A stretch of DNA of 64,000 nt from Ancylobacter oerskovii (GTDB taxonomy: Bacteria; Pseudomonadota; Alphaproteobacteria; Rhizobiales; Xanthobacteraceae). The stretch covers positions 248,001 to 312,000 of the forward strand of contig NZ_JAHBGB010000019.1 in the NCBI RefSeq assembly GCF_018390555.1, given 5' to 3'. Under the pieces are notes generated by a model. It was given only the letters and a program-made list of their open reading frames with translations, had not been told where the DNA came from and ran no database searches. Position numbers and translations under genes: made by a program. This document shows positions 2 to 14,393 of this stretch, piece after piece (the first letter of the stretch is position 1; each line of letters starts with the position of its first letter).

Positions 2-397
2 CAGACGCCGGGCATGTTCCGCCAGGCGGCGATCAACCATGCCCGTGTCGGCGCCCAGAAGATCTGGGCCGGCACCGTCACCATCCAGCCCGATGCCAAG
101 ACCGGCGTGCACCATCACGGCGAGCTGGAAAGCGTGATCTATGTGGTGCGTGGGCGTGCCCGCATGCGCTGGGGCGAGCGGCTGGAATATGTCGCCGAGG
201 CCGAGCCGGGCGACTTCATCTTCGTGCCGCCCTTCGTGCCGCACCAGGAGATCAACGCCGATCCGAACCAGCCGCTGGAATGCGTGCTGGTGCGTTCCGA
301 CAATGAGGCGGTGGTGGTGAACATCACCGATGTCGACCCGGTGGAGAAGCCGGAAGCGGTCTATTGGGTCGATCCGATCCACAAGGCGCCGGAGTGA
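2..397 (+). CDS. Cupin-domain protein, 5' end outside the window
   Basis: Only the 3' part is visible: the reading frame is open from base 2 and the Met at base 14 lies within sequence that looks like the usual start of the fold (TPGMFRQA), so the true start is probably upstream of the window. The beta-barrel carries the first cupin motif as HHHGELE and the second as the stretch from GDFIFVPP to the His of VPHQE, which would supply a typical His3-Glu metal site. Single-domain cupins of this kind are dioxygenases, isomerases or binding proteins, and the sequence does not say which. It converges on the methyltransferase at 489-1085. Confidence 0.7.
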   Translation, partial: QTPGMFRQAAINHARVGAQKIWAGTVTIQPDAKTGVHHHGELESVIYVVRGRARMRWGERLEYVAEAEPGDFIFVPPFVPHQEINADPNQPLECVLVRSDNEAVVVNITDVDPVEKPEAVYWVDPIHKAPE

Positions 398-488: not shown

Positions 489-1085
489 TCAGATCATCTT
501 GGCGCGCGCCTTGGCGGGCAGCGCCTTCTTGGCCCGATTTTTCTGAATGATCATCTGGGGCCCCTTGTAGCGAACCCTGTACTCGCCCTTGTGCAGGGCG
601 AGGAAGGCATCGATGCCGTCATGCGGGCGTCGCTCGGGCGGAGCCGCCGTTCCCCAGTGATAATCGTCCCAGATCAAGACGCCGTTGGGCCCCAGCATCG
701 GCCAGGCCAGCAGGCTGGCGCCGAGCGTGTGGTCGCGGTTCTTGCCGCCGTCGAGATAGATCAGCTGGAATTTCCGTCGCTGTTCCTTCAGCCGGTCGAG
801 CGCCGTCACGCCGCTTCCCTTGATCTTCTCCACGCGGTCGCCGAACTCCGCGATGTTCTGATCGAACAGGCGTTCGTAGGGTCCCCAGAAGGTATCGATG
901 CAGGTGACTTTGGCGGAAGGAAAAAAGCGGGCGAAGAAAACCGCCGAGCTTCCCTCATACGATCCCAATTCCAGTACATTGATCGGCAGTTCAGCCCATC
1001 GTCCGAGAATTGGTGTCCAGATATCCACTCTCTTCGACGCGAAGTTACTCGTGAACTCTTTGCCGGCGAACCAATCTACCGTCAT
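489..1085 (-). CDS. Class I SAM-dependent methyltransferase
   Basis: A 198-residue protein with the Rossmann signature of small class I methyltransferases (Methyltransf_24 type). Motif I is VLELGSYEG at about residues 37-45, the acidic ribose-binding strand is VTCIDTF near 60-66, and later strands carry LIYLDGG and LIWDDYHW. The open frame continues upstream, but Met at 1085 is preferred because GGGGAG lies about 8 bases before it and the residues upstream look non-coding. The substrate cannot be read from sequence; relatives act on sugars and secondary metabolites. Its 5' end and leader are visibly richer in A and T than neighbouring genes, which may mark acquisition. It is not obviously tied to either neighbour. 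Confidence 0.75.
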   Translation of the reverse strand: MTVDWFAGKEFTSNFASKRVDIWTPILGRWAELPINVLELGSYEGSSAVFFARFFPSAKVTCIDTFWGPYERLFDQNIAEFGDRVEKIKGSGVTALDRLKEQRRKFQLIYLDGGKNRDHTLGASLLAWPMLGPNGVLIWDDYHWGTAAPPERRPHDGIDAFLALHKGEYRVRYKGPQMIIQKNRAKKALPAKARAKMI

Positions 1086-1329: not shown

Positions 1330-2295
1330 CTACCGGTCGCCGCGAACGACCGGCGGGGTTCCATGGGTATGGAAGCTCTCGATGGTCTTGAGGCCCCAGG
1401 CCTGCCCCTTCTTCCGTTCGGTCTCGGTCCAGGTGACGGTCTGCCAGTCGGGATCGAGGATCAGGCGGGCGCCGGCATTGGCGACCTCCACCCGGTTGCC
1501 GGCCGGCTCGTAGACATAGAGGAAGAAGGTCTGCTGCACCGCGTGCTTGTGCGGCCCGGTCTCGATGAACACGCCGTTCTCGAGGAAGAAGTCGGCGGCC
1601 TCCAGCACATGCTCGCGCTGGTCGACCGCATAGGTGACGTGGTGAAACCGTCCCTCGCTGCCGGTGAAGTCGCGCGTATAGGCGATGTCGTAGCTCTTGT
1701 TGTTGATGGTGAACCAGCAGCCGGCTACCTCGCCGGAATCCAGCACGATCTGCTCGGTCACCCGGCTGCCGAGCGCCGCCGGCAGGAAGTCGCGGATCAC
1801 CCCGACATCGCGCGCGAGCAGGTTCAGGTGATCGATGCGCCGCACCGCGCATCCGCGGCCGTGATTGCGCTGCGCCTGGTTCTTCAGGGCCGGGCGCTCG
1901 TCCGGCGGCGGGGCATATTTGCGGGTATCGAAATAGATCTCGAACACATGCTTGTCGGGGTCGTGGAAGCGATAGGCGCGCCCGTGGCCGAGATCGCCGT
2001 CCACCCAGCCTATGCCGGCGCCGAGCTTCTCGATCGCCGCCACGCGGCGCAGCAGAGCCTGCTCGCTGGTCGCCCGGTAGGCGATATGGCCGACCCCGGT
2101 GCGGGAGGCGGCCGTAAGTTTCAGCGTGTGGAACTCATAGTCGTCCCAGGCCCGCAGATAGACGCTGTCGCCCTCGCGCCCGCTCTCGGTGAGGCCGAGG
2201 ATGTTGACGAAGAAGTCGAGGCTTTCGGCGGGCTTGTCGGTCAGGAGCTCGACATGCGCGAGATGGGCGATGTCGTGGATGGGTTCGGGCGTCAT
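1330..2295 (-). CDS. VOC-superfamily extradiol dioxygenase, type I, with unusual active site
   Basis: A 321-residue two-domain vicinal-oxygen-chelate protein of the catechol 2,3-dioxygenase type. The N-terminal domain (about 8-125) is degenerate; the C-terminal domain (about 152-285) holds the candidate Fe(II) ligands His156, His218 or His219 and Glu270, and His251 and Tyr260 match active-site His246 and Tyr255 of XylE by spacing. The position matching the XylE acid/base His199 (motif KAHD) is KSYD here, so Tyr202 replaces His. It is the last gene of the minus-strand liv-gal operon, 24 bases after livF. Known enzymes of the family insert both atoms of O2 next to vicinal hydroxyls. Given the galBCD neighbours, a gallate-like substrate is possible, but this is inference. 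Confidence 0.8.
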   Translation of the reverse strand: MTPEPIHDIAHLAHVELLTDKPAESLDFFVNILGLTESGREGDSVYLRAWDDYEFHTLKLTAASRTGVGHIAYRATSEQALLRRVAAIEKLGAGIGWVDGDLGHGRAYRFHDPDKHVFEIYFDTRKYAPPPDERPALKNQAQRNHGRGCAVRRIDHLNLLARDVGVIRDFLPAALGSRVTEQIVLDSGEVAGCWFTINNKSYDIAYTRDFTGSEGRFHHVTYAVDQREHVLEAADFFLENGVFIETGPHKHAVQQTFFLYVYEPAGNRVEVANAGARLILDPDWQTVTWTETERKKGQAWGLKTIESFHTHGTPPVVRGDR

Positions 2296-2319: not shown

Positions 2320-3081
2320 TCAGTGCGCCGCGCCTGGCGGCCGGGCGCTGCCGGCGCGCTCCGCCGCCGGCGCGGGGGAGCGTGCCACGCCGAGGAAGCC
2401 CTGCAGCGTCGCGGCGTCGTCGCGCAGGGCCGCGCTGGTCGCTTGGTGCACGATGCGGCCGCGTTCCAGTATCATGGCGTCGTCGGTGATCTTGAGGATC
2501 TTGTGGGCGTGCTGCTCGACGATGATGGCGGCGAGGCCCTCGGCGCGGAAGATGTCGCGCAACGCCTTCAGAAGCTCCTCGACGATGATGGGGGCGAGGC
2601 CTTCGGTCGGCTCGTCGAGCAGCAGCAGCTTCGGGTTGAGCACCAGGGCGCGGCCGATGGCAAGCATCTGCTGCTCGCCGCCGGAGAGCTGGTCGCCCAT
2701 ATTGGCCCGCCGCTCGCCGAGCCGCGGGAACATGCCGAACACCCGTTCGGGCGTCCATGGGCCGGGACGCGCGACGGCGGTGAGGTTCTCCATCACGGTG
2801 AGCGAACGGAAGATGTTGCGCTCCTGCGGCACCCAGCCGATGCCGGCGCGCGCCCGCCTCTCCGGCGCGAAGGCGGTGACGTCGGCGTCGCCCAGCCGGA
2901 TGGCGCCGGCCGTGCGGCGCGTCACCCCGATGAGGCTGTTGAGGAGCGTCGTCTTGCCCACGCCGTTGCGCCCGAGCAGGGCGAGGCTGCGCCCCTCGCC
3001 GAGGCGGAAGCCGATATCGTGCAGCACCGCGGCCTGGCCGTAGCCGGCGAACAGTCCTTCGACGGTCAACAGGTCACGCAT
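2320..3081 (-). CDS. livF: Branched-chain-type ABC transporter ATPase LivF
   Basis: A 253-residue cytoplasmic ATPase of the LivF class. Walker A is GRNGVGKTT, the signature is LSGGEQQMLAIGRAL and Walker B is LLLLDEPTEGLAP, whose TEGLAP tail is typical of LivF. It overlaps the end of livG by 8 bases, as expected for translational coupling. With LivG, LivH, LivM and a LivK-like binding protein it forms a hydrophobic amino-acid-type importer. Members of this family in alphaproteobacteria often carry aromatic acids, and the co-transcribed gallate-route enzymes suggest that here. The last 25 or so residues are Ala/Pro-rich and probably disordered. Confidence 0.92.
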   Translation of the reverse strand: MRDLLTVEGLFAGYGQAAVLHDIGFRLGEGRSLALLGRNGVGKTTLLNSLIGVTRRTAGAIRLGDADVTAFAPERRARAGIGWVPQERNIFRSLTVMENLTAVARPGPWTPERVFGMFPRLGERRANMGDQLSGGEQQMLAIGRALVLNPKLLLLDEPTEGLAPIIVEELLKALRDIFRAEGLAAIIVEQHAHKILKITDDAMILERGRIVHQATSAALRDDAATLQGFLGVARSPAPAAERAGSARPPGAAH

Positions 3082-3832
3082 CGCCGCTCTCTCCGCCCAG
3101 ATAGGCCGCCCGCACCGTCGGATCGGCGGCGATGGCGGCGGGCTCGCCTTCGGCGATCACCGTGCCGTTCACCAGCACGGTGATGCGGGTGGCGAAGCGG
3201 AAGACCAGATCCATGTCGTGCTCGATCAGCAGCACGCTGACCTCCGCCGGCAGCTCGGACACGATGTTGAGCAGGTCCTGCCGCTCGGCTTCCGGCACGC
3301 CGGCGGCGGGCTCGTCGAGCAGCAGCACCTTGGGACGGGCGGCGAAGGCGGCGGCGATCTCCAATTGGCGCTGCTTGCCGTAGGACAGCGTGGCGATCGT
3401 TTCCCCGATCACGTCGTCGAGCCGGAAGCGCTCGGCGATCGCCGCCGCCTCCCGCACCAGATCCGCGCGCGCGTCGAGCCGGCTCCACAGGTGCAGCCCG
3501 CGTCCCTCGCGCTCGCCGAGCACGAGCAGCAGCATCTCCAGCGGCGTCATGGTGCGGAAAAGCTGGTTGATCTGGAAGGTGCGGCTCATGCCGAGCCTTA
3601 CCCTCGCTTCCGGCCGGCTATGGGTGACGTCCCGCCCTTCGAGACGGATCGCGCCCCCGGAAGGCTTCAGCACGCCGGTCAACTGGTTGACGAAGGTGGT
3701 CTTGCCGGCGCCGTTCGGGCCGATCAGCGCGTGGCGCGCCCCGCGCTCCAGCGTAAAGGAGACGCTGTTGGTGGCGAGAAGGCCGCCGAAGCGCTTGACG
3801 AGGTCGAGGGTCTCGAGAACCGGGGCGCTCAT
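3074..3832 (-). CDS. livG: Branched-chain-type ABC transporter ATPase LivG
   Basis: A 252-residue ATPase of the LivG class. Walker A is GPNGAGKTTF, the signature region is the family variant LSYGKQRQLEIAAAF and Walker B is VLLLDEPAAGVPE, where AAG after the DEP is typical of LivG. Its start codon overlaps the livM stop by 4 bases and its end overlaps livF. It should dimerise with LivF on the cytoplasmic face of the LivHM permease and power uptake of the operon's substrate, probably an aromatic or other carboxylate rather than leucine, judging from the catabolic genes in the same operon. Confidence 0.92.
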   Translation of the reverse strand: MSAPVLETLDLVKRFGGLLATNSVSFTLERGARHALIGPNGAGKTTFVNQLTGVLKPSGGAIRLEGRDVTHSRPEARVRLGMSRTFQINQLFRTMTPLEMLLLVLGEREGRGLHLWSRLDARADLVREAAAIAERFRLDDVIGETIATLSYGKQRQLEIAAAFAARPKVLLLDEPAAGVPEAERQDLLNIVSELPAEVSVLLIEHDMDLVFRFATRITVLVNGTVIAEGEPAAIAADPTVRAAYLGGESGDA

Positions 3833-4929
3833 GGGCGGCGGCCTCCGAACAGGCCGGCAATCTTCAGGCCGGCAATCTTGCGGCGCAGCGCCGCGCCGGC
3901 CTTGTGTACCGCCTCGCGGCCGCCGGAGACGAAGACCACCAGCAGCAGCCCGACCCAGAACTGCCAGTATTGCGGCGTGGCGGCGGCGACGGCGTCCTGG
4001 AACAGCTCGAACAGCACCGCGCCGATCAGCCCGCCATAGAGCCAGCCGGTGCCGCCGATGATCAGCACCAGCATCAGGTCGGCCGAGCGGTGGAACTCCA
4101 GCACGTCGAGCGAGACGAACTGGGTGGTCTGGGCGAGCAGCGCCCCGGCGGCGCCGGCATAGGCGGCGGCGAGCGTGTAGACGACGACAAGCCGGCCATT
4201 GACCCCGACCCCCGAGGCGGAGGCGCGCAGCCGGTTGTCGCGTATGGCGCGCAGCGACAGGCCGAAGGGCGAGCCCATCATCCGCCGGGCCGCCAGGAAC
4301 AACAGGAACAGCACGGCGAGCGAATAGAGATAGGCGGTGCGTCCCTTGAGGTCGAAATCGAACAGGCCGAGCACCGGATCCATGGCGATGCCCTGCAGCC
4401 CGTCGGCGCCGCCGGTGAGCGAGCGCCAGCTATTGGCCGCCTCGAACACCAGCAGCGCCACCCCGAGCGTCACCATCAGCCGGGTGAGATCGGTGCCGCG
4501 CAGCACCAGGAAGCTGGAAAGAAAGCCCAACGCCGACGCCGTGAGCATCGCCACCAGCAGGCCGGCCAGCGGGTCGGCGTTCACGTTCAGCGCGAACAGG
4601 CCGGCGGCATAGGCGCCGACGCCGAGAAAGGCGGCATGGCCGAGGGAGACGATGCCGGCATAGCCGAGGATGAGGTCGAGCGACAGCGCGAACAGCGCGA
4701 GGATCGCGATCTCGTTCATCAGCAGCATGGAGCGCGGCAGCACCAGCGGCGCGACGAGCGCGACGGTCCAGAACAGGAATTCGGCGGGCTTCCAGCGCCG
4801 TGCGCGCCGTACCGCCTGCTCGGCCGGCGCGACATCCCGGGCAAGCGGTGCCGGCGGGGGCGCGGCGGGCACGATCTCGGGCGGCAGGGGGGAGGCGGGC
4901 AGGGGAGCGGAGGGAGTGCCGGCCGTCAT
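3829..4929 (-). CDS. livM: Branched-chain-type ABC transporter permease LivM
   Basis: A 366-residue inner-membrane permease with about ten hydrophobic segments and the LivM hallmark LILGYAGIVSLGHAAFLGVGAY. The open frame runs far upstream, but the ATG at 4929 overlaps the livH stop as ATGA and begins the recognisable protein. The first 50 residues form an Ala/Pro-rich cytoplasmic tail before the first membrane segment, longer than in textbook LivM. The C-terminus carries a basic stretch (RRKIAGLK). It pairs with LivH to form the translocation channel. Confidence 0.92.
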   Translation of the reverse strand: MTAGTPSAPLPASPLPPEIVPAAPPPAPLARDVAPAEQAVRRARRWKPAEFLFWTVALVAPLVLPRSMLLMNEIAILALFALSLDLILGYAGIVSLGHAAFLGVGAYAAGLFALNVNADPLAGLLVAMLTASALGFLSSFLVLRGTDLTRLMVTLGVALLVFEAANSWRSLTGGADGLQGIAMDPVLGLFDFDLKGRTAYLYSLAVLFLLFLAARRMMGSPFGLSLRAIRDNRLRASASGVGVNGRLVVVYTLAAAYAGAAGALLAQTTQFVSLDVLEFHRSADLMLVLIIGGTGWLYGGLIGAVLFELFQDAVAAATPQYWQFWVGLLLVVFVSGGREAVHKAGAALRRKIAGLKIAGLFGGRRP

Positions 4930-5780
4930 CGCGCCACCGCGAACAGGCCCTGCGGGCGAAACAGCAGCACCACGATCATCAGGGCGTAGATGAGGAAGGC
5001 GCCGGCTTCGGGGACGTAATATTTTCCGGCGACGTCGACGATGCCGATGAGCAGGGCCGCGATGAAGGGGCCGATGAGCCCGGCGCGGCCGCCGACGGTC
5101 ACCACGATGAGGAAGTAGATCATGAATTTCAGCGGAAAGGTGGGATCGAGCCCGAGCATCTCGGCGCCGAGCGCGCCGCCGAGGCCGGCCAGCCCGGAAC
5201 CGACGGCGAAGGTGAGGGTGAACAGCAGGCCGACCTCGATGCCGAGGCCGCGGGCGACGCGCTGGTCGTCCACCGCCGCGCGCAGCTGGCTGCCGAAGCG
5301 GGTGCGCGCCAGCACGAACTGCAGCAGCACCGCGACGACGATGCAGACGCCGATGACGAAGCTGCGGTAGCGGCCGATGCCGGTGCCGGCGATGTCGAAG
5401 CGGCCCTGCAGCCAGGACGGCACATGCACCAGCTGCTGCTGCGAGCCCATGAAGTAGTCGACCGCCGCCACCGACATGAACACCAGCCCGATGGAGAACA
5501 GCACCTGGTCGAGATGCGACTTGTCGTAGAGCGGCCGGTAGAGCGTGCGCTCCAGCACGGCGCCGATCAGCGCCGGCATCAGGAAGGCGACCGGCAGCGT
5601 CGCCAGGAAGCCCATGCCGTAGCGCTGCATCAGCACCACGGTGACGTATCCTCCCGCCATGGCGAAGGACCCGTGAGCGAGGTTCACGAAGTTCATCAGG
5701 CCCAGCGTGACGGCGAGGCCGGACGCCAGGATGAAGAGCAGCATCCCGTAGGCCACGCCGTCGAAGAGGATGGTCAGCAT
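4926..5780 (-). CDS. livH: Branched-chain-type ABC transporter permease LivH
   Basis: A 284-residue inner-membrane permease beginning LTILFDGVAYGMLLFILASGLAV, the usual LivH N-terminus, followed by the family motif GLMNFVNLAHGSFAMAGGYV. Eight or so hydrophobic segments cover the length, as expected. It starts 5 bases downstream of galC and overlaps livM by 4 bases. This places the permease genes directly behind the catabolic enzymes, so transport and degradation are likely expressed from a single message. Confidence 0.92.
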   Translation of the reverse strand: MLTILFDGVAYGMLLFILASGLAVTLGLMNFVNLAHGSFAMAGGYVTVVLMQRYGMGFLATLPVAFLMPALIGAVLERTLYRPLYDKSHLDQVLFSIGLVFMSVAAVDYFMGSQQQLVHVPSWLQGRFDIAGTGIGRYRSFVIGVCIVVAVLLQFVLARTRFGSQLRAAVDDQRVARGLGIEVGLLFTLTFAVGSGLAGLGGALGAEMLGLDPTFPLKFMIYFLIVVTVGGRAGLIGPFIAALLIGIVDVAGKYYVPEAGAFLIYALMIVVLLFRPQGLFAVAR

Positions 5781-5785
5781 CGCGC

Positions 5786-6475
5786 TCAGCCTTCCGGGTC
5801 GTCGATATAGACGAGGCCGGCCTTGGCGAGCGGCTCGCGCATCGCATACATGTCGAGGCCGAGCACGCCGGAGGCGAGGCGCCGGCGCTTCTCCTCCTCA
5901 TTGGCCTCGCGCTGGCGGGCGGCGGCGGCCACCGCCGCGGCTTCGAGGCGCGGTACCACCACGACGCCGTCATCGTCGGCCACCACCACGTCGCCGGGAT
6001 TGACCAGCACGCCGCCGCACACCACCGGCACGTTGACGCTGCCGGGCGTCGCCTTCACCGTGCCCTTGGCGGAGATCGCCTTGGCCCAGACGGGGAAGCC
6101 CATCTCCTTCAGCACCTTGACGTCGCGCACCCCGGCATCGGTGACGAGGCCGATGCCGCCGCGCGCCTTCAGCGAGGTGGCGAGCAGGTCGCCGAACATG
6201 CCGTCGGTATTGTCGGCGGTGCAGCCGACCACCACGATGTCGCCCGGCTTCACCTGCTCGATGGCGACATGCAGCATCCAGTTGTCGCCGGGCTGGGCGA
6301 GCACCGTCACCGCCGTGCCGGCGATCTGCGCACCGGGATAGATCGGCCGCATATAGGGCTTCATCAGCCCGAGCCGGCCGAACGCCTCATGGGTGGTGGA
6401 GACGCCGAGCTCGCCGAGGGTGGCGATGTCGGCGGCGTCGGCCCGCTTGCTGGTACGAATGACGACGGGCTTCAT
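5786..6475 (-). CDS. galC: 4-carboxy-4-hydroxy-2-oxoadipate aldolase / oxaloacetate decarboxylase (RraA fold)
   Basis: A 229-residue RraA-fold class II pyruvate aldolase. Family residues visible are [12 protein letters not shown], the loop GDLLA before LVTDAGVRD (the Arg-Asp pair that binds substrate carboxylate and Mg2+), and the tail DDDGVVVVP. The upstream extension of the frame is shadow; ATG at 6475 overlaps the preceding gene by 4 bases. In gallate and protocatechuate 4,5-cleavage pathways the family (GalC, LigK, ProA) splits 4-carboxy-4-hydroxy-2-oxoadipate into pyruvate and oxaloacetate. The flanking GalB- and GalD-like genes make this assignment much stronger than the RraA fold alone. 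Confidence 0.83.
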
Positions 6476-7197
6476 GCCAGGATCTCCACGGCTTCGGGGA
6501 ACAGTCGCTGATAGGCCTCGCCATAGGTCATGGAGCGGCCGGAATTGCGCCCGCCCTGCATGCCGCGATTGAGCGCGACGCGGGTGTAGTATTCCCAGAG
6601 GTGCTGCTGGGCGGCGAGCACCTCGAAGGCGCGGCGCTTCACCTCCCACACCTCGTCGATGTTGAGGATCAGCGTCGGCTTGTAATTGCACTGCTCCGGC
6701 TGGTGCGGCTCGAACAGGAACACCGGCGGCGCCGAATAGGGGCGGTTCGGATCCGGCTTGTGGCCGGCGGCCTGGGCGATGATGCGCGCCTCCTGGGCGA
6801 AGCGGGTCGCCTCGGGATGATCGACGTTGTAGGGGTCCTGCAGCGAATGGGTGAGCACGAAGCTCGGGTTCAGGTCGTGGAAGATGTCGACGGCGCGGTC
6901 GAGCATCGCCTCGGTGGTGCGCAGCGGGTAGTCGCCGGCATCCATGAACTCGATCTCGGCGCCGAGGATGGCGGCGGCGCGCTCGGCCTCGTCGCGGCGC
7001 TGCGCCTTGACGTCCTCCATCTTCACCCCGGCCTTCTTCCAGGCGAACTGGCTCTCGCCGCGTTCGCCATAGGAGAGGCACAGGATCTTCACCCGGTAGC
7101 CGCGCTTGACGTGCAGCGCGACCGCGCCGCCCGTCCGCCACACGAAGTCGCCGGGATGCGCGGTGACGACCAGACCTGTCTTCTGCAGGCTCGACAT
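6472..7197 (-). CDS. galB: PIG-L family hydrolase, probable 4-oxalomesaconate hydratase
   Basis: A 241-residue member of the PIG-L/LmbE family. The zinc-binding motif AHPGD lies near residues 11-15 and the second site is in [14 protein letters not shown]. Most PIG-L proteins are N-deacetylases, but GalB of Pseudomonas putida is a PIG-L-fold hydratase that converts 4-oxalomesaconate to 4-carboxy-4-hydroxy-2-oxoadipate. Its placement between the aldolase (overlap of 4 bases) and the GalD-like tautomerase supports the GalB role. Met at 7197 (MSSLQKTG) is the chosen start. A deacetylase acting on another substrate remains possible. Confidence 0.78.
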
Positions 7198-7222: not shown

Positions 7223-8335
7223 TCATTCGGCGGCACGGAGCGCCCCGGCCGGTGCCGAGGCGGCGCGCGCCGGTACATAGGCGTAGCCGTCCATCAGGAG
7301 GCGAGCGGTGCGCAGCAGGCCGCCGCGCTCGATCACCGGGCGATCCGGCGTGCCGCCGACCGTCAGGTGCACGGTGAACTCGCCGGTGGGATGCTCCACC
7401 GACACCGATTTCTCGCGCCCCGGCGGCAGCCGGGCCACCGAGGCCGCCGGCGAGCCGGGCAGGGCGGCGGCGGTGGCGACGGTGAGCGCCGCGAACACGC
7501 CGATCGAGGCGTGGCATTCGTGCGGGATGAAGCTGCGCGTCGCGATGGCGCCGCCGGCCTGTGGCGCCGCCACCAGCGTGATCTTCGGCACCACCTTGCC
7601 GGCGACGTCGCCGAGATGCATCAGCGGCCCGGCGGCGAGGCGGATGCGCTCGATGCGCGCCTTCAGCTCGGTGTCCTTGTCGAGCGCCTCGCGGCTTTCA
7701 TAGCCGGTGCGCCCGACATCGGCGGCGCGCAGCACGATCACCGGCATGCCGTTGTCGATCAGCGTCACCTCGACGCCGTCGACCACGTCCACGGCGTTGC
7801 CGGTCGGCAGCAGGGCGCCGCAGACCGAGCCCTCGGTGTCCCGGAAGCCAATATTGATCGGCGCCGACGTGCCGGGCACGCCGTCGATCCGGGCCTCGCC
7901 CTCGCTGCGCGCCTCGCCGCCCTCGATCTCGATCCGCAGGTCGGCGATGGTGCCGGTGTTGAGCGTGCGCACGCGCACCGTCGTCACCGGCTCCTCGGTC
8001 CTCACCAGCCCGCGGGCGATGGCGAAGGGACCGACGCCGGCGAGGATGTTGCCGCAATTGGGCGTGGTGTCGACGCTCGCCGTCTCGACGCCTACCTGCG
8101 CGAACAGGAAGTCGACGTCGCAGGCGGGATCGGCGGAGGGCGAGACGATCGCCACCTTGCTGGTGAGGGGGTGTGCCCCGCCCAGCCCGTCGATCTGGCG
8201 CTTGTCCGGCGATCCCATCACTGCGAGCAGCAGGGCGTCGCGGGCCGGGCGCTCCTGCGGCAGCTCGCTCGCCAGGAAATAGGCCCCCTTGGACGTGCCG
8301 CCCCTGACGAGCATGCACCTGACCCGCTGTTGCAT
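7223..8335 (-). CDS. galD: 4-oxalomesaconate tautomerase (PrpF family)
   Basis: A 370-residue PrpF/DAP-epimerase-fold isomerase. It begins with the family signature CMLVRGGTSKGAYF and has the second-half motif NCGNILAGVGPFA. GalD of Pseudomonas putida isomerises the keto and enol forms of 4-oxalomesaconate after gallate ring cleavage. PrpF proteins also act on aconitate isomers, but the neighbours galB and galC favour GalD. It lies 25 bases upstream of galB and 3 bases downstream of a Bug-type binding protein in the same operon. Confidence 0.83.
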   Translation of the reverse strand: MQQRVRCMLVRGGTSKGAYFLASELPQERPARDALLLAVMGSPDKRQIDGLGGAHPLTSKVAIVSPSADPACDVDFLFAQVGVETASVDTTPNCGNILAGVGPFAIARGLVRTEEPVTTVRVRTLNTGTIADLRIEIEGGEARSEGEARIDGVPGTSAPINIGFRDTEGSVCGALLPTGNAVDVVDGVEVTLIDNGMPVIVLRAADVGRTGYESREALDKDTELKARIERIRLAAGPLMHLGDVAGKVVPKITLVAAPQAGGAIATRSFIPHECHASIGVFAALTVATAAALPGSPAASVARLPPGREKSVSVEHPTGEFTVHLTVGGTPDRPVIERGGLLRTARLLMDGYAYVPARAASAPAGALRAAE

Positions 8336-8338
8336 CGC

Positions 8339-9337
8339 TTAGCCTCCGCCGGTGATCTGCGCCTGGGTGATGACCTCGCGCCAGACCGGGAGTTCCGCGG
8401 CGATCAGCTCGCCGAAGCCTTCGGGCGTGCGGGGCATCGCGACCGCGCCGTCCCTCTCCAGCACCGCCGCGAATTCGGGGGTGGAGAGCTGGGCGTTGAT
8501 CTCTCGGTTGAGCCGGTCGACGATCTCGCGCGGCGTGCCGGCCGGCGCGACGATGCCGTACCACTGCACCGCTTCGAAGCCCGGCAGCCCGCTCTCGGCG
8601 AGGGTCGGCAGCTGCGGCGCGAAGGAGGCGCGCGCGGCGCTGGCGATGCCGAGCGCCTTCAGCTGCCCCTTGGCGGCGAAGGGCAGCACGGCCGGCCCGC
8701 CGGTCAGCGTGAACTGCACGACGCCGGCGACGAGGTCGACCACCGATGGCGCCGTACCCTTGTAGGGAATGTGGACGGCCTGGAAGCCGGCCTTGTAGGC
8801 GAGGTAGGCGCCGGCGATGTGCGCCGCGCTGCCCTGGCCGCCGGAGCTGTAGTTCAGCTTGCCGGGATTGGCCTTGGCGTAGGCGACGAATTCCTGGAAG
8901 TCCTTCACCGGGAGTTCCGGATTGACGACCAGGATGTTCGGCACCGACGCCACCAGCGCCACCGGCTGGAAGTCGCGGATCGGGTCGTAGGGCAGGTTGG
9001 GATAGAGGGCGGGATTGAAGGCGAGCGTGCCGATATGGCCCATCATCAGCGTGTGGCCGTCGGGCGCGGCCTTGGCCACCGCCGAAGCGGCGATGGTGCC
9101 GCCGGCGCCGGGCTTGTTGTCGACGATGAAGCCGGGGCCGCCGAGCGCCGGGGCGATCTTGGCGGCGATCAGCCGGGCCAGCACGTCGGTGCTGCCGCCG
9201 GGCGTGAAGGGCACGACGATCTTGACCACCTGCGAGGGCCAGGCCTGTGCCGGTCCGCCCGCCTGGGCGCGCAGCAGGGTGGGGGCGCACGCGCCGGCGA
9301 GGCCGAGCCCCGCGATGAGGGAGCGTCGATTGAGCAT
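8339..9337 (-). CDS. Bug/TctC-family periplasmic binding protein (orphan)
   Basis: A 332-residue extracytoplasmic binding protein of the Bug (TctC) family. The N-terminus LNRRSLIAGLGLAGA followed by LLRAQA resembles a Tat or Sec signal peptide. The mature part starts WPSQVVKIVVPFTPGGSTDVLAR, which is the family opening, and NKPGAGGTIAA is the ligand-loop motif. There is no tctA or tctB in this operon; Bug proteins are often found without their own membrane partners. The nearest TctAB are at 12849-14915. It could bind the aromatic acid or a ring-fission product, or act as a sensor. The order livK-bug-galD is tight, so co-transcription is likely. Confidence 0.88.
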   Translation of the reverse strand: MLNRRSLIAGLGLAGACAPTLLRAQAGGPAQAWPSQVVKIVVPFTPGGSTDVLARLIAAKIAPALGGPGFIVDNKPGAGGTIAASAVAKAAPDGHTLMMGHIGTLAFNPALYPNLPYDPIRDFQPVALVASVPNILVVNPELPVKDFQEFVAYAKANPGKLNYSSGGQGSAAHIAGAYLAYKAGFQAVHIPYKGTAPSVVDLVAGVVQFTLTGGPAVLPFAAKGQLKALGIASAARASFAPQLPTLAESGLPGFEAVQWYGIVAPAGTPREIVDRLNREINAQLSTPEFAAVLERDGAVAMPRTPEGFGELIAAELPVWREVITQAQITGGG

Positions 9338-9360: not shown

Positions 9361-10542
9361 TCAGAGCCCGGCCTTCGACGGGTCCTTGACGTTGGGCACG
9401 GTGGCGAACTCGACATTGTAGAGTTCGCCGTCCACGCGCTCGACGCGGCGGATGTAGATGTTCTGGATCGGCTCGCGGGTATTGGGGTCGATGGTGACCG
9501 GCCCGCGCGGGCTCTCCCAGGACAGGCCCTTCATCGCCGCCACCAGCGCCGCGCCGTCGGTCGCGCCGCCGGTCTTCTTCAGCGCCTCGTAGATCAGGTG
9601 CATGCCGTCATAGGCTTGCACGGCGATGTGGTTGGGCCGGTGGCCATAGGCCTTGCGGAAGGCCGCGACGAAGGCGGCGTTCTCCGCGCTCCTGTGGGCC
9701 GCGGAATAGTGGTGCGCGGTGATCATGCCGAGGACGGAATCGTCCATCTGGGTGAGGATGTCGTCCTCGGTGACGCTGCCTTCGCCGAGCACCTTGATGC
9801 CGGACTTGTCGAGGCCGCGCTCGACGAACTGCTTCATCAGCGCCGCGCCGAGGCCGGTCGGCACGAACACGAACAGCGCCTCCGGCTTGGCGTCGACCGC
9901 CCGCTGGAGGAAGGGCGCGAAGTCGCGGGTGCTGAGCGGGACGCGGATGGCTTCGAGGACCTCGCCGCCCTTGGCCTTGAAGCGGGTGTTGAAGCCGGCT
10001 TCGGAATCGAGGCCCGGTGCGTAGTCGGCGACGATGCTCACCACCTTGCGGATGCCGTTGTCATAGGCCCAGTCGGCGAGCGGCACGGTGGTCTGCGCCT
10101 GGGTGAAGGCGGGGCGGACGATGAAGGGCGAGCGTTCCGTGACCACCGAGGTCGCCGCCATCATCACGATCTCCGGCACCTTGGCCTGGGTGGCGAGCGG
10201 CGCCACCGCCAGCGCCAGCGGCGTCAGGCCGAAGCCGGTGAGGATCTTCACCCCGTCATTGGCCACCATTTCCTGCGCGATGCGCTTGGTGACGTCGGCG
10301 ACGCCGGTGTCGTCGCGCAGGACGAGCTCGATCTTCTTGCCGGCGACGGTGTCGCCGGCCTGCTTGATGTAGAGCCGGGCGCCTTCCTCCAGCATGCGGC
10401 CGGTGGAGGTGAACGGGCCCGTCATCGGAGCGATGAGGCCGATCTTGACGACATTGTCGTCCGCCCTGGCCGGGAGGGCCATGGCGGAGCCTGCGAGCGC
10501 CAGGCCGGTGCTCGCCAGAAAGCTGCGGCGATTGAGGGACAT
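9361..10542 (-). CDS. LivK-like ABC transporter substrate-binding protein
   Basis: A 393-residue type I periplasmic binding protein and the first gene of the minus-strand operon. The signal peptide begins SLNRRSFLASTGLALAG and ends near ALPARA, with a twin-arginine-like pair. The mature protein starts VKIGLIAPMTGPFTSTGR, typical of LivK and aromatic-acid binding proteins. The C-terminal part includes GPVTIDPNTREPIQNIYIRRV, a common family feature. It should deliver ligand to LivHMGF encoded downstream. The 219-base leader contains a good dyad for LysR control. Confidence 0.9.
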   Translation of the reverse strand: MSLNRRSFLASTGLALAGSAMALPARADDNVVKIGLIAPMTGPFTSTGRMLEEGARLYIKQAGDTVAGKKIELVLRDDTGVADVTKRIAQEMVANDGVKILTGFGLTPLALAVAPLATQAKVPEIVMMAATSVVTERSPFIVRPAFTQAQTTVPLADWAYDNGIRKVVSIVADYAPGLDSEAGFNTRFKAKGGEVLEAIRVPLSTRDFAPFLQRAVDAKPEALFVFVPTGLGAALMKQFVERGLDKSGIKVLGEGSVTEDDILTQMDDSVLGMITAHHYSAAHRSAENAAFVAAFRKAYGHRPNHIAVQAYDGMHLIYEALKKTGGATDGAALVAAMKGLSWESPRGPVTIDPNTREPIQNIYIRRVERVDGELYNVEFATVPNVKDPSKAGL

Positions 10543-10761: not shown

Positions 10762-11667
10762 TCAGTCGGCGGCGATGCTCGCATGCAGCGAGGCCACCAC
10801 CAGGTCCAGCAGGTCCTGCGCCGCCGGGCTCAGCGGCAGGCCCTTGCGGGTGATGATGCCAAGCGTGCGGGTCACCGTCGGCGCGCGCAGCGGGATGGCG
10901 ACGATGTCGTCCCTCGACACCACGTCGAGGGCCAGCTTCGGGACCACGGCATAGCCGATGCGCGCCCGCACGAGGCTCACGGCGGTGACCACGCGCTGCA
11001 CCTCGTAGTTCCAGAGCAGGCTCTCGCTGCGCGAGCCGAGCGCATCGTCGATGAGGATGCGGTTGCCGGTTTCCGAGCTGATGCGGACCAGCGGCACGCC
11101 GTCGAGCTCGGCCCAGGCCAGCGACCCGGCGCCGGCCAGCGGCATGCTGCGATGGCAGACGAGGACGAACGGTTCCTTCACGATCGGCTGGAGCTCAAGG
11201 TCCCAGCGATTGGCCGAGACGATGGTCACCCCGAACTCGGCCCGCCCGGATTGCACCTTGTCGGCGATCTCCGAGGCGGAATTGTCGTGGACGATCACCT
11301 GTATGTCGCCATAGCGGGCGATGAAGGCGGCGATGACGTCCGGCATGCAGCGCATCGCCACGGTGGGCAGGCAGCCCATGACCACGCGCTCCTGCGCCTC
11401 GCGGGCGGTGCTGCGCAGGTCCTCCAGCGTGGTGCCCAGCTCCTCGAACACCTTGCGGGCGCGCGGCAGCAAGGCGAGGCCGGCCGGGGTCAGCGTGACC
11501 TGCCGGGTGGTGCGGACCAGCAGCTGCAGCGAGAGCGATTCCTCCAGCTTGCGGATGCGGTGGCTGAGCGCGGTCTGCGACAGGTTGAGGTGCGAGGCGG
11601 CGGCGCGGAAGCTGCCGCGCTCGGCGATGCTGACGAAGGCCTGCAGTCCCAGCACGTCGATACGCAT
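10762..11667 (-). CDS. LysR-family transcriptional regulator
   Basis: A 301-residue LysR protein. The winged HTH covers about residues 1-65 (VLGLQAFVSIAERGSFRAAASHLNLSQ...), followed by a linker and an effector-binding domain with the usual end near 295. The open frame continues upstream, but Met at 11667 gives the standard length. It is transcribed toward the liv-gal operon, from which it is separated by 219 bases, and diverges from a second LysR gene. The most economical role is control of that operon in response to an aromatic acid. This is inference from position. Confidence 0.88.
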   Translation of the reverse strand: MRIDVLGLQAFVSIAERGSFRAAASHLNLSQTALSHRIRKLEESLSLQLLVRTTRQVTLTPAGLALLPRARKVFEELGTTLEDLRSTAREAQERVVMGCLPTVAMRCMPDVIAAFIARYGDIQVIVHDNSASEIADKVQSGRAEFGVTIVSANRWDLELQPIVKEPFVLVCHRSMPLAGAGSLAWAELDGVPLVRISSETGNRILIDDALGSRSESLLWNYEVQRVVTAVSLVRARIGYAVVPKLALDVVSRDDIVAIPLRAPTVTRTLGIITRKGLPLSPAAQDLLDLVVASLHASIAAD

Positions 11668-11842
11668 GGCGGCCTCCGGTTGCGGGCGCGTGGCTGCGAC
11701 TGGCTTAGCCGATGCCGGCCCCGGCGAACAGCGCCGGCCGCCGGCAAGGCTGGACAAGCCGGGGCGGATATCGACAAGCTTGGCGGCGGGCACGCATCGC
11801 CCGTCGCGATCACCGGCGGCAGGGCAGGACGGACACCGCATC

Positions 11843-12787
11843 ATGCGTCAGAAGCTGAGCAGCCGGCTGAGGCTGCGGCAGGTGGAAATCGTCATCGCCG
11901 TCGCCGAGCAGGGCAGCTTCCTCGCCGCTTCGCACCAGCTGGGGCTGAGCCAGCCGGCGGTATCGAAGGCGGTGCGGGAGATCGAGGCGGTGCTCGGCCA
12001 GCCGGTCTTCGACCGGATGCCCCGCGGCGTGATGATCAATCCCTTCGGCCGGGCGGTCGTCGAGCGCGGGCGCGCCATGCTGTCGCTGGTCGACCGGCTG
12101 GGCGACGATATCGGCCTCATCGAGCAGGGCCTCGCCGGCACGCTGGTGATCGGCGCCCTGCCAACCGCGGCGTCGAGCGTGCTCCCCGCGACGCTCGGCC
12201 GCCTGCGCGTGTCCAATCCCGATCTCGACATCCGCCTGGTGCAGGGACGCACGGTGGAACTCATGCCGCAGCTGGAAAGCGGCAAGCTGGACCTCATCGT
12301 CGGCCGCCTCTACGAGGCCGATACCTCGAAGGACGTGCAGCGCGAGACCATCTATCACGAGCCGATCTCGATGCTGGCGCGGGCCGGCCATCCGCTGTTC
12401 GAGGAGGGGGAGCCCGATGTCGCCGCGCTGCGCCGCTATGGGCTGGTGCTGCCGTCGCTGGAGCAGCGGCTCGGGCAGGAGGTGGATTCGGTGCTGGCCT
12501 TTTCCAACCTGCTGCCGGACCGGCCGACTTTGCGCTCGACCTCGATCTCGTTCATCCGCGAGCTCATCCTCGCCAGCGATGTCGTGACCGTGCTTCCCCG
12601 CCTGATGCTGGCGGGCGATCTCATCCGCGGCGCGGTGCGGATGGTGCCGGTCCCGCTGATGTCGGTCAGCCGGCCGGCCGGCATCGTGTCCCTGCGCCAC
12701 CGCCGGCGGGCGGCCAGCGTGCTGGCGCTGATCGCGGCGCTGCGCGAGCATTTGCACGAGCTTCGCCAGACGGGGCTGCTCGACTGA
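11843..12787 (+). CDS. LysR-family regulator, GbpR/PcaQ-like
   Basis: A 314-residue LysR protein starting MRQKLSSRLRLRQVEIV. The HTH (about 8-68) has the sequence style of the GbpR/PcaQ subgroup (RLRQVEIVIAVAEQGSFLAA, then QPAVSKAVREIE), whose members include PcaQ for protocatechuate and GbpR for sugar-binding protein control. The C-terminal domain is full length. It is divergent from the LysR gene at 10762-11667 across 175 bases and converges on tctA. It may control the liv-gal operon or the tct genes; sequence alone does not decide. Confidence 0.86.
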   Translation: MRQKLSSRLRLRQVEIVIAVAEQGSFLAASHQLGLSQPAVSKAVREIEAVLGQPVFDRMPRGVMINPFGRAVVERGRAMLSLVDRLGDDIGLIEQGLAGTLVIGALPTAASSVLPATLGRLRVSNPDLDIRLVQGRTVELMPQLESGKLDLIVGRLYEADTSKDVQRETIYHEPISMLARAGHPLFEEGEPDVAALRRYGLVLPSLEQRLGQEVDSVLAFSNLLPDRPTLRSTSISFIRELILASDVVTVLPRLMLAGDLIRGAVRMVPVPLMSVSRPAGIVSLRHRRRAASVLALIAALREHLHELRQTGLLD

Positions 12788-12848: not shown

Positions 12849-14393
12849 TCAGGCGCGCGAGCTTCCGCTCCCGGCCGCCCCGGCCGGTTCATGGCGCCCC
12901 GAACCGCGCGCGAGGTCGATCAGCTTGCCGATCAGCGGCCAGAACAGCATGACCAGCGCCAGGGTGGTGATGGTGCCGACCAGCTTGTTCGACCAGAAGA
13001 TGCCGAGCCCGCCATCGAGGCCGATCATCGATTGGCGGAAGGCATCCTCCGCCTTGTCGCCGAGCACGAGCGCCAGCGTCATCGGCGCCAGCGGGATGCC
13101 GGTCTTCTTGAACAGGTAGCCGACCACGCCGAAGCCGAGCATCAGCCAGATGTCGAACATAGCGTTCTGCACCGCGAAGGCACCGATGGCGCAGGACACG
13201 ATGATCATCGGCGCGATGGTGGCGAAGGGCACGCGCAGCACCGAGGCGAACAGCGGCACGGTGGCGAGCACGATGATCAGCCCGGCGATGTTGCCGAGAT
13301 ACATCGAGGCGATCAGGCCCCAGACGAAGTCCTTCTGCTCGACGAACAGCAGCGGGCCGGGCTGCAGGCCCCACACCATCAGGCCGCCGAGCAGCACCGC
13401 CGCGGTGCCGGAGCCGGGAATGCCCAGCGCCAGCATCGGCAACAGCGCCGAGGTGCCGGCGGCATGGGCGGCGGTCTCCGGTGCCAGCACGCCCTCGATC
13501 TTGCCCTTGCCGAAATTGGCCCCGTCACGCGAGAAGCGCTTGGCGAGGTTGTAGCCCATGAAGGAGGCGGCGATGGCGCCGCCCGGCGTCACCCCCAGCC
13601 AGCAGCCGATGGCGGAGGAGCGCAGCAGGGTCACCCAGTAGCGCGGCAGCGTCAGCCAGGTGCGCCACACCACCGACAGGCGGATCTTCGCCTCCTGCCC
13701 CTTGAAGGCGAGATGCTCCTCCATGGCGAGCAGGATCTCGGAGATGCCGAACAGGCCGATCACCGCGACCAGGAAGTCGAAGCCGCGCAGCATTTCGACC
13801 GAGCCGAAGGTCATGCGCAGTTCGCCCGACACCGTGTCCATGCCGACCGCCGCCAGCAGGAAGCCGAGCGCCAGCGAGATGACGATCTTGTGGCGGGCTT
13901 CCTTGCCGAGGCCGACAAAGGAACAGAAGGTCAGGAGGTAGACGGCAAAGAATTCCGGCGGCCCGAAGCGCAGCGCGAAGGTGGCGATCCACGGCGCCAG
14001 GAAGGTGATCAGCATCACCGCGGCGATGGAGCCGAAGAAGGAGGCGGTGAAGGCGGCGGTGAGCGCTTCGGCCGCCTGGCCCTTCTGCGCCATCGGGTAG
14101 CCGTCGAAGGTGGTGGCCACCGACCACGCCTCGCCGGGAATGTTGAACAGGATCGAGGTGATCGCCCCGCCGAACAGCGCCCCCCAATAGATGCAGGACA
14201 GCAGCACGATGGCCGAGGTGGGGTCCATGGTGAAGGTGAGCGGCAGCAGGATGGCGACGCCGTTCGGTCCGCCGAGGCCGGGCAGCACGCCCACCAGGAT
14301 GCCGAGGCAGATGCCGACCAGCATCAGCAGCATGTTGTGGAAGGTCAGCAGGACGCCGAAGCCGTGGAGAAGGGAATCGAGAGCTTCCATCAC
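12849..14393 (-). CDS. tctA: Tripartite tricarboxylate transporter large membrane subunit TctA
   Basis: A 514-residue inner-membrane protein with about 11-12 hydrophobic segments. It carries the conserved TctA glycine/proline motifs GVLPGLGGPNGVAILLP near the N-terminus and GVTPGGAIAASFMGYNLAKRF in the middle, and the loop GIPGSGTAAVLLGGLM. It lies 9 bases after tctB and is last in the order dehydrogenase-tctC-tctB-tctA. With TctB and TctC it imports a carboxylate using the membrane potential. The substrate is unknown; the adjacent 2-hydroxyacid dehydrogenase suggests a hydroxy acid. Confidence 0.93.
   Translation of the reverse strand: MMEALDSLLHGFGVLLTFHNMLLMLVGICLGILVGVLPGLGGPNGVAILLPLTFTMDPTSAIVLLSCIYWGALFGGAITSILFNIPGEAWSVATTFDGYPMAQKGQAAEALTAAFTASFFGSIAAVMLITFLAPWIATFALRFGPPEFFAVYLLTFCSFVGLGKEARHKIVISLALGFLLAAVGMDTVSGELRMTFGSVEMLRGFDFLVAVIGLFGISEILLAMEEHLAFKGQEAKIRLSVVWRTWLTLPRYWVTLLRSSAIGCWLGVTPGGAIAASFMGYNLAKRFSRDGANFGKGKIEGVLAPETAAHAAGTSALLPMLALGIPGSGTAAVLLGGLMVWGLQPGPLLFVEQKDFVWGLIASMYLGNIAGLIIVLATVPLFASVLRVPFATIAPMIIVSCAIGAFAVQNAMFDIWLMLGFGVVGYLFKKTGIPLAPMTLALVLGDKAEDAFRQSMIGLDGGLGIFWSNKLVGTITTLALVMLFWPLIGKLIDLARGSGRHEPAGAAGSGSSRA

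Follow-up and report, generated by a model that had tools for sequence, protein, structure and literature searches.

The window, that is, the whole stretch of 64,000 nucleotides of Ancylobacter oerskovii DNA analysed here, comes from a genome of 5.48 Mb with a completeness of 99.76%. Close to its beginning, it contains a run of genes in the order livK-tctC-galD-galB-galC-livHMGF-VOC. These genes are co-directional and either overlap or are separated by gaps of at most 25 bases, and the VOC gene is the last of them. The features of the run and its surroundings are as follows, in window positions.

1330..2295, (-) strand: Tyr202-type VOC extradiol dioxygenase, proposed gallate dioxygenase; last in the co-directional run (open reading frame, family scores, alignment and model)
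2320..3081, (-) strand: livF-like ABC ATPase (open reading frame and start; LivF-like cluster of other loci; named by sequence reading)
3074..3832, (-) strand: livG-like ABC ATPase (open reading frame and start; cluster match; named by sequence reading)
3829..4929, (-) strand: livM-like permease (start set at ATG 4929; labelled by sequence reading)
4926..5780, (-) strand: livH-like permease (open reading frame; cluster match; labelled by sequence reading)
5786..6475, (-) strand: galC, 4-carboxy-4-hydroxy-2-oxoadipate aldolase (TIGR02798, NF006731, PF03737; start ATG 6475)
6472..7197, (-) strand: galB, PIG-L-fold protein, proposed 4-oxalomesaconate hydratase (PF02585, 83.6 bits; start ATG 7197)
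7223..8335, (-) strand: galD, 4-oxalomesaconate tautomerase (NF033377, 512.5 bits against a cut-off of 440; PF04303)
8339..9337, (-) strand: TctC-like tripartite tricarboxylate transporter binding protein (PF03401)
9361..10542, (-) strand: LivK-like periplasmic binding protein, head of the run (PF13458)
10762..11667, (-) strand: LysR-type regulator (PF00126/PF03466; start ATG 11667)
11843..12787, (+) strand: divergent PcaQ-like LysR-type regulator (TIGR02424; start ATG 11843)
12849..14393, (-) strand: TctA permease, operon membership not established (PF01970, 490.5 bits)

The original prediction placed the VOC gene in a galBCD operon, and this placement holds: galD and galC score over the curated cut-offs of their families, galB encodes a PIG-L protein, and the run is tight and co-directional. 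In particular, galC, scanned from position 6421, reaches 355.3 bits with TIGR02798 (cut-off 304.5) and 361.6 bits with NF006731 (cut-off 179). The name galB is proposed from the PIG-L fold and the neighbouring genes; relatives of the gene, 48-98% identical, are found in 64 of 99 loci that carry a Tyr-type VOC gene (see below). The run contains no PDC hydrolase gene. The PcaQ-like regulator obtains 180.5 bits with TIGR02424, which is below the cut-off of 303.8, over residues 182-479 of the open reading frame 11321-12787. A Methyltransf_24 protein (489-1085, minus strand) and a Cupin_2 protein (14-397, plus strand) adjoin the end of the run.

The VOC gene is an intact open reading frame (1330-2295, minus strand) that starts with ATG and encodes 321 amino acids. 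Among named records, the nearest protein is that of Ancylobacter sp. Lp-2 (93% identity). The model TIGR03211 (catechol_2_3) gives the window protein 320.1 bits, just under the cut-off of 320.2, and gives a Tyr-bearing relative from A. tumefaciens 296.8 bits against the same cut-off. PF00903 (Glyoxalase/VOC) matches in two stretches, as expected for two VOC modules in about 300 amino acids; in the NCBIfam and Pfam scans, PF02900, which represents the LigB fold, does not match the protein, and Glyoxalase/VOC models match instead. A structure prediction, which had been proposed along with the original prediction, gave a confident AlphaFold2 model (mean pLDDT 90.4). A Foldseek search with this model matched, over nearly the full length, AphC (7q2a, TM 0.93), XylE (TM 0.86) and, among the best 50 matches listed, entries of homoprotocatechuate 2,3-dioxygenase (HPCD; TM 0.79-0.84), all of which have the fold in common. 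By predicted fold and by residues, the protein is a two-domain type I (VOC) extradiol dioxygenase, for which ring cleavage is predicted.

The active-site residues were located by profile alignment with XylE (1mpy), the XylE residue numbers being counted off the printed alignment. KSYD stands opposite KAHD without gaps around it, and His199 of XylE corresponds to Tyr202, which bears out the observation that Tyr occupies the place where His is expected. The other pairs (XylE residue first) are H153 and H156, H214 and H219, H246 and H251, Y255 and Y260, and E265 and E270; an alignment with HPCD (1f1x) yields the same column pairs. By these alignments, the 2-His-1-Glu iron triad of the C-terminal domain is complete (H156, H219 and E270), and the second-sphere pair (His246 and Tyr255 in XylE) is present as H251 and Y260. 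The residues 156, 270, 251 and 260 are therefore in place as predicted, and of the two candidates 218 and 219 the iron ligand is H219, the second residue of an HH pair. The acid/base His of type I enzymes (His199/His200) is missing; the gap-free alignment and the shared fold suggest that Tyr202 sits in its place. Among the Foldseek structure matches listed are HPCD variants in which H200 is replaced by N, Q, E or C.

Two further features may concern the binding of the substrate. K295 and K296 may hold a substrate carboxylate, which is a guess from the HPCD alignment; both positions are basic in six Tyr-bearing plasmid proteins, and neither is basic in the His-bearing proteins of T. thermophilus and Rhodococcus. 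Also, according to an excerpt of PMC3962378, Glu377' of DesB forms a hydrogen bond with OH(5) of gallate, and for this reason a residue for OH(5) may be expected in the Tyr enzyme too.

To describe the extent of the Tyr type, we collected 135 loci at an identity of at least 60%, which correspond to 114 distinct proteins (63.7-100%, the window protein included). Tyr is found at position 202 in all 114 proteins, which rules out a one-off mutation or a sequencing error, and the iron ligands, H251 and Y260 are kept in 134 of the 135 loci, the remaining one being partial. The next nearest proteins (four loci, L158-L161, 47-49% identity) all have His, and so do 20 of 21 proteins below 40% identity, the other one having Leu. 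On plasmids, proteins with Tyr that are 62-70% identical occur in Agrobacterium (two), Pantoea (two), Roseomonas and Thermus oshimai; His is found in the plasmid proteins of T. thermophilus (46%) and Rhodococcus (40%), and Ile in that of Halobellus (34%). In a maximum-likelihood tree of 63 rows, all Tyr proteins and the PDB entry 9wgj form one clade (support 100/98) adjoining L158-L161; note that some rows, including 9wgj, have long branches. There are 31 clade-specific positions, at which 46 or all of the 47 Tyr rows, but no more than one of the nine His rows, have the same residue; these include N199, T246, H249, A252, Q254, T256, A272, N273 and Q298. Tyr202 is the mark of a conserved, monophyletic clade, of which 9wgj is a solved outlying member.

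The entry 9wgj, deposited as catechol 1,2-dioxygenase, is 53% identical to the window protein over 309 residues and has the motif NKSYD with Tyr. It differs in having S at position 249 (SPSKH instead of GPHKH), and CSG takes the place of the NAG-type residues of the clade. We found no paper for this structure code in the open-licence literature. AphC, an alkylcatechol 2,3-dioxygenase of Rhodococcus (3lm4/7q2a), resembles the window protein in its two-domain VOC fold (37-38% identity by Foldseek) and has the same iron ligands and equivalents of H251 and Y260; however, its residues at positions 202, 246 and 249 are His, A and D, respectively, and D and T stand in the places of K295 and K296. XylE and HPCD likewise share the fold and the frame of the active site, but have His199 and His200, respectively, in the place of the Tyr, and other known substrates.

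The genes around the VOC gene were compared using 99 Tyr loci with their flanks, of which two duplicates were dropped to leave 97, and 18 His-type loci as controls. The original prediction had called for a search for close relatives beside galBCD. At least two of galB, galC and galD are found near the VOC gene in 65 of the 97 Tyr loci and in none of the 18 His-type loci (Fisher P 3.8e-8, a value that is indicative only, since the loci, collected by similarity, are related to each other), and all three are found in 51 of the 97. Locus L130 has a piece of galD according to clustering, yet is scored as galD-absent in this count. An O-demethylase of the LigM/DesA type lies near the gene in 25 of 97 Tyr loci and in none of the His-type loci; its cluster has 28 proteins, and with one that is cut left out, both the LigM and the DesA models match all 27. 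When the demethylase is counted together with the gal genes, 72 of 97 Tyr loci have at least one of them nearby, against 0 of 18. In the other 25 Tyr loci the flanking DNA contains neither a gal gene nor the demethylase, and just six of these are shorter than 15 kb. Of the 97 loci, 15 have MTHFR nearby and 9 a LigI-like protein; for one representative of each, the comparison with solved structures led to 7xg9 (MTHFR) and 4d8l (2-pyrone-4,6-dicarboxylate hydrolase), respectively.

Several other proteins recur in these loci. A DUF1932/NAD_binding_2 dehydrogenase occurs in 41 of 99 Tyr loci by clustering (for example, L100:11047-11940), and also on the A. tumefaciens plasmid pAt and the T. oshimai plasmid. 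In eight loci of family genomes there is a cluster whose one searched member resembles 4,5-dihydroxyphthalate decarboxylase. A MetE-like protein of the cobalamin-independent methionine synthase type is found in L085 (8895-10004) and 15 other loci, as well as in L193 (2879-3994); in many loci of Bosea, its gene directly precedes the VOC gene, and the protein is possibly a methyl-group handler.

The usual ring-opening enzymes of gallate, GalA and DesB, share with the window protein the proposed reaction (gallate to 4-oxalomesaconate, OMA) and the gal companions, but have the LigB fold (PF02900), which is unrelated to VOC. The original prediction noted that the window contains no LigAB/GalA-type dioxygenase. 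This holds and can be widened to the whole genome, in which PF02900 matches nothing at E <= 0.001. A galA-type gene elsewhere in the genome would have spoken against the proposed role; in this search none was found, and the proposal is not refuted by it. The genome also has no LigM/DesA over the cut-off and no close LigI, with one match at 38%. Two more galD-like genes score over the cut-off (L182 9833-10966 on contig C4 and L183 9842-11002 on contig C23), each accompanied by relatives of LysR, TctC and TctA. A second gallate operon at these places was considered and rejected, as no galB or galC match is found in the surrounding 18-20 kb; these genes perhaps encode PrpF-type isomerases of other tricarboxylates.

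Among the named loci, 54 have two or more gal genes, and we surveyed the genomes of 50 of them in the same way. With PF02900, 27 of these genomes have no match (1e-8), the matches of 12 are all weaker than 1e-40, and 11 have stronger ones; that is, 23 of 50 have some LigB-family match, the strongest (269 bits) being in the genome of locus L138. A LigB relative lies close to the VOC gene in 4 of 99 loci (L124, L131, L137 and L139), and these four are 44-47% identical to the LigB of a Roseomonas plasmid described below. A LigI-like match at 1e-40 is absent in 27 of 50 genomes. The beta subunit of protocatechuate 3,4-dioxygenase (pcaH) is found over the cut-off in 47 of 51 genomes, including that of the window; it is absent in G733, G739, G743 and G751, and G743, the genome of L138, has a LigI-like protein along with its strong LigB. 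Neither LigB nor LigI is found in 15 of 50 genomes, 14 of which have pcaH. In these genomes, the gal genes need a direct maker of OMA, for which the VOC protein is the candidate.

A broader comparison covered 391 family genomes, of which 181 have a VOC match at 1e-60, with residue 202 checked in the retrieved loci only. galD is over the cut-off in 85 of the 391, and 80 of these 85 were searched for LigB, which was matched in 56. LigB is missing in 18 of the 47 galD-bearing genomes with the VOC gene, against 6 of the 33 without it (Fisher P 0.08). Mutual exclusion of LigB and the Tyr VOC is thus not clearly borne out, and the absence of LigB where the VOC gene is present is a tendency only. In three VOC-less genomes (G034, G102 and G215), some 4-5 kb separate LigB and galD, an arrangement known from the usual route.

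The plasmid loci show the gene in various contexts. The conjugative plasmid pAt of A. tumefaciens 186, which comes from walnut, carries in this order a LIV transporter, PIG-L, Tyr-VOC, galC, galD and tannase (L194 7252-12623; tannase PF07519, 437.9 bits), possibly a gallotannin route on one element. Relatives of this tannase are near none of the 99 Tyr loci, and it is a telling single case, not a rule. A plasmid of A. vitis has the same gal/VOC core with a carboxylesterase. In Pantoea piersonii p174224, about 6 kb lie between galB-galC-galD and the VOC gene; in Pantoea At-9b, no annotated gal gene is found within 9 kb of it. On the Roseomonas plasmid (L191 6064-8981), LigA and LigB lie one gene upstream of the Tyr VOC: the run is LigA, LigB, an alpha/beta hydrolase and Tyr-VOC, so that both dioxygenase classes are adjacent. 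The Thermus oshimai plasmid pTHEOS01 (L189) has Tyr-VOC with PIG-L, GalC, DUF1932, DUF6282 and a PobA-type 4-hydroxybenzoate 3-monooxygenase, and no annotated galD in the cluster; judged from these genes, the cluster is readable as a protocatechuate route, in which DUF6282 may be a lactone hydrolase replacing LigI.

Taking these data together, we consider that the protein is probably a VOC-type Fe(II) gallate dioxygenase, perhaps acting also on 3-O-methylgallate, that would form OMA as a non-homologous replacement of GalA/DesB. The original prediction had suggested, with the substrate as an inference, that this VOC-fold protein may cleave the ring of gallate or of a similar trihydroxy compound. 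The comparative evidence supports this suggestion: the gal neighbours, LigM/DesA, MTHFR and LigI-like proteins in some loci, one tannase, a genome without LigB, and pcaH in nearly all genomes. In the proposed reaction, gallate would bind Fe(II) via neighbouring hydroxyls, O2 would be activated, and the C4-C5 bond would be opened. Since C5 bears the third hydroxyl, the product would be the tricarboxylate OMA rather than a semialdehyde. GalD tautomerises OMA, GalB hydrates it, and GalC splits the product into pyruvate and oxaloacetate. Tyr202 probably replaces the acid/base His, and might form a hydrogen bond with the third hydroxyl or with the bound oxygen.

Cleavage between C4 and C5 of gallate is extradiol with respect to the 3,4-diol and intradiol with respect to the 4,5-diol, and either mode would lead to OMA. 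It is conceivable, though unlikely, that the Tyr clade is a VOC-fold enzyme that works on gallate in the intradiol style. A substrate with three hydroxyls would free the family from the acid/base His, whose place the aromatic Tyr would take over. The H200F variant of HPCD is said to carry out intradiol cleavage with some substrate, and the deposited name of 9wgj, catechol 1,2-dioxygenase, would fit as well, although it may be a mere label.

Other substrates have to be weighed against gallate as well. Rather unlikely, in our view, is a protocatechuate 4,5-dioxygenase, whose product CHMS would be converted by oxidation, possibly through the DUF1932 protein, to PDC, which LigI or DUF6282 would hydrolyse before galD, galB and galC act. 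The Thermus oshimai cluster with its PobA-type enzyme, DUF1932, DUF6282, PIG-L and GalC speaks for it, and the decarboxylase-like cluster, the LigI-like proteins, the four genomes without a pcaH match and the recurrence of DUF1932 point in the same direction; a simple gallate pathway has no use for a DUF1932 dehydrogenase, which does not fit our main reading. However, nearly all genomes, including that of the window, already have pcaH, and one of the exceptions (G743) has its own LigB and LigI-like protein. Moreover, more than half of the surveyed genomes have no LigI-like match, the window run has no PDC hydrolase gene, and a tannase adjoins the gal and VOC genes on pAt. Clearly improbable is 3-O-methylgallate as the main substrate, alone or on a par with gallate, in a syringate route leading to both PDC (with loss of methanol) and OMA. 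Demethylase, MTHFR and LigI-like PDC hydrolase genes near a minority of loci would suit it, and so would GalA, which, according to PMC12481942, turns 3-O-methylgallate into a product that becomes PDC; but the demethylase is missing from the neighbourhood in 72 of 97 loci, and the window's genome has neither LigM/DesA over the cut-off nor a close LigI.

The remaining alternatives concern the type of reaction. An ordinary catechol or alkylcatechol 2,3-dioxygenase, with Tyr standing in for His and an incidental position beside galBCD, would agree with the TIGR03211 score a hair under the cut-off and with AphC, solved with 4-ethylcatechol, being the closest His-bearing structure among the matches listed. 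This is very unlikely, as the 31 clade-specific positions changed with or around Y202 and gal genes accompany the Tyr loci but none of the His-type loci. A VOC enzyme that does not cleave rings (an isomerase or lyase of the OMA branch, for instance) would explain the loss of the usual acid/base residue, and a few loci do have a LigB relative at hand for ring opening. We regard it as extremely unlikely: the iron ligands, H251 and Y260 are kept throughout, and without the VOC protein neither the window run nor, as judged with PF02900, the genome would have a gallate-type ring opener. Note that the clade need not be uniform. Part of it may act on protocatechuate or another compound, as the 25 loci without gal genes or demethylase, the Thermus cluster, the decarboxylase-like cluster, DUF1932 and the Roseomonas LigAB suggest.

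We found no description of a VOC-type gallate dioxygenase in the open-licence literature, which was surveyed mostly at the level of listings. In an excerpt of the AromaDeg paper (PMC4250580), the substrates of type I enzymes are listed with the words "among others" and gallate is absent from the list, and gallate dioxygenases are assigned to the LigB superfamily. An excerpt of PMC13254512 describes PraA of Paenibacillus as a protocatechuate 2,3-dioxygenase with a gene of 881 bp. What is new here is a type I extradiol clade with a natural change of His to Tyr and a probable new role; the substitution itself has already been crystallised in 9wgj. The clade is a natural replacement of the His that was mutated in HPCD, and lets the role of this residue be probed in an evolved enzyme.

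If our reading is true, the enzyme fills the missing step of gallate ring opening, and hence of the use of syringyl lignin and tannin units, in many alphaproteobacteria, and gallate cleavage has evolved a second time, in an unrelated protein family. The records with a Tyr-VOC gene bear the names Bosea, Ancylobacter, Mesorhizobium, Rhizobium, Agrobacterium and Rhodobacteraceae, to which Pantoea and perhaps Thermus plasmids can be added. In these records, the gene is mostly annotated as "VOC family protein" or "catechol 2,3-dioxygenase".
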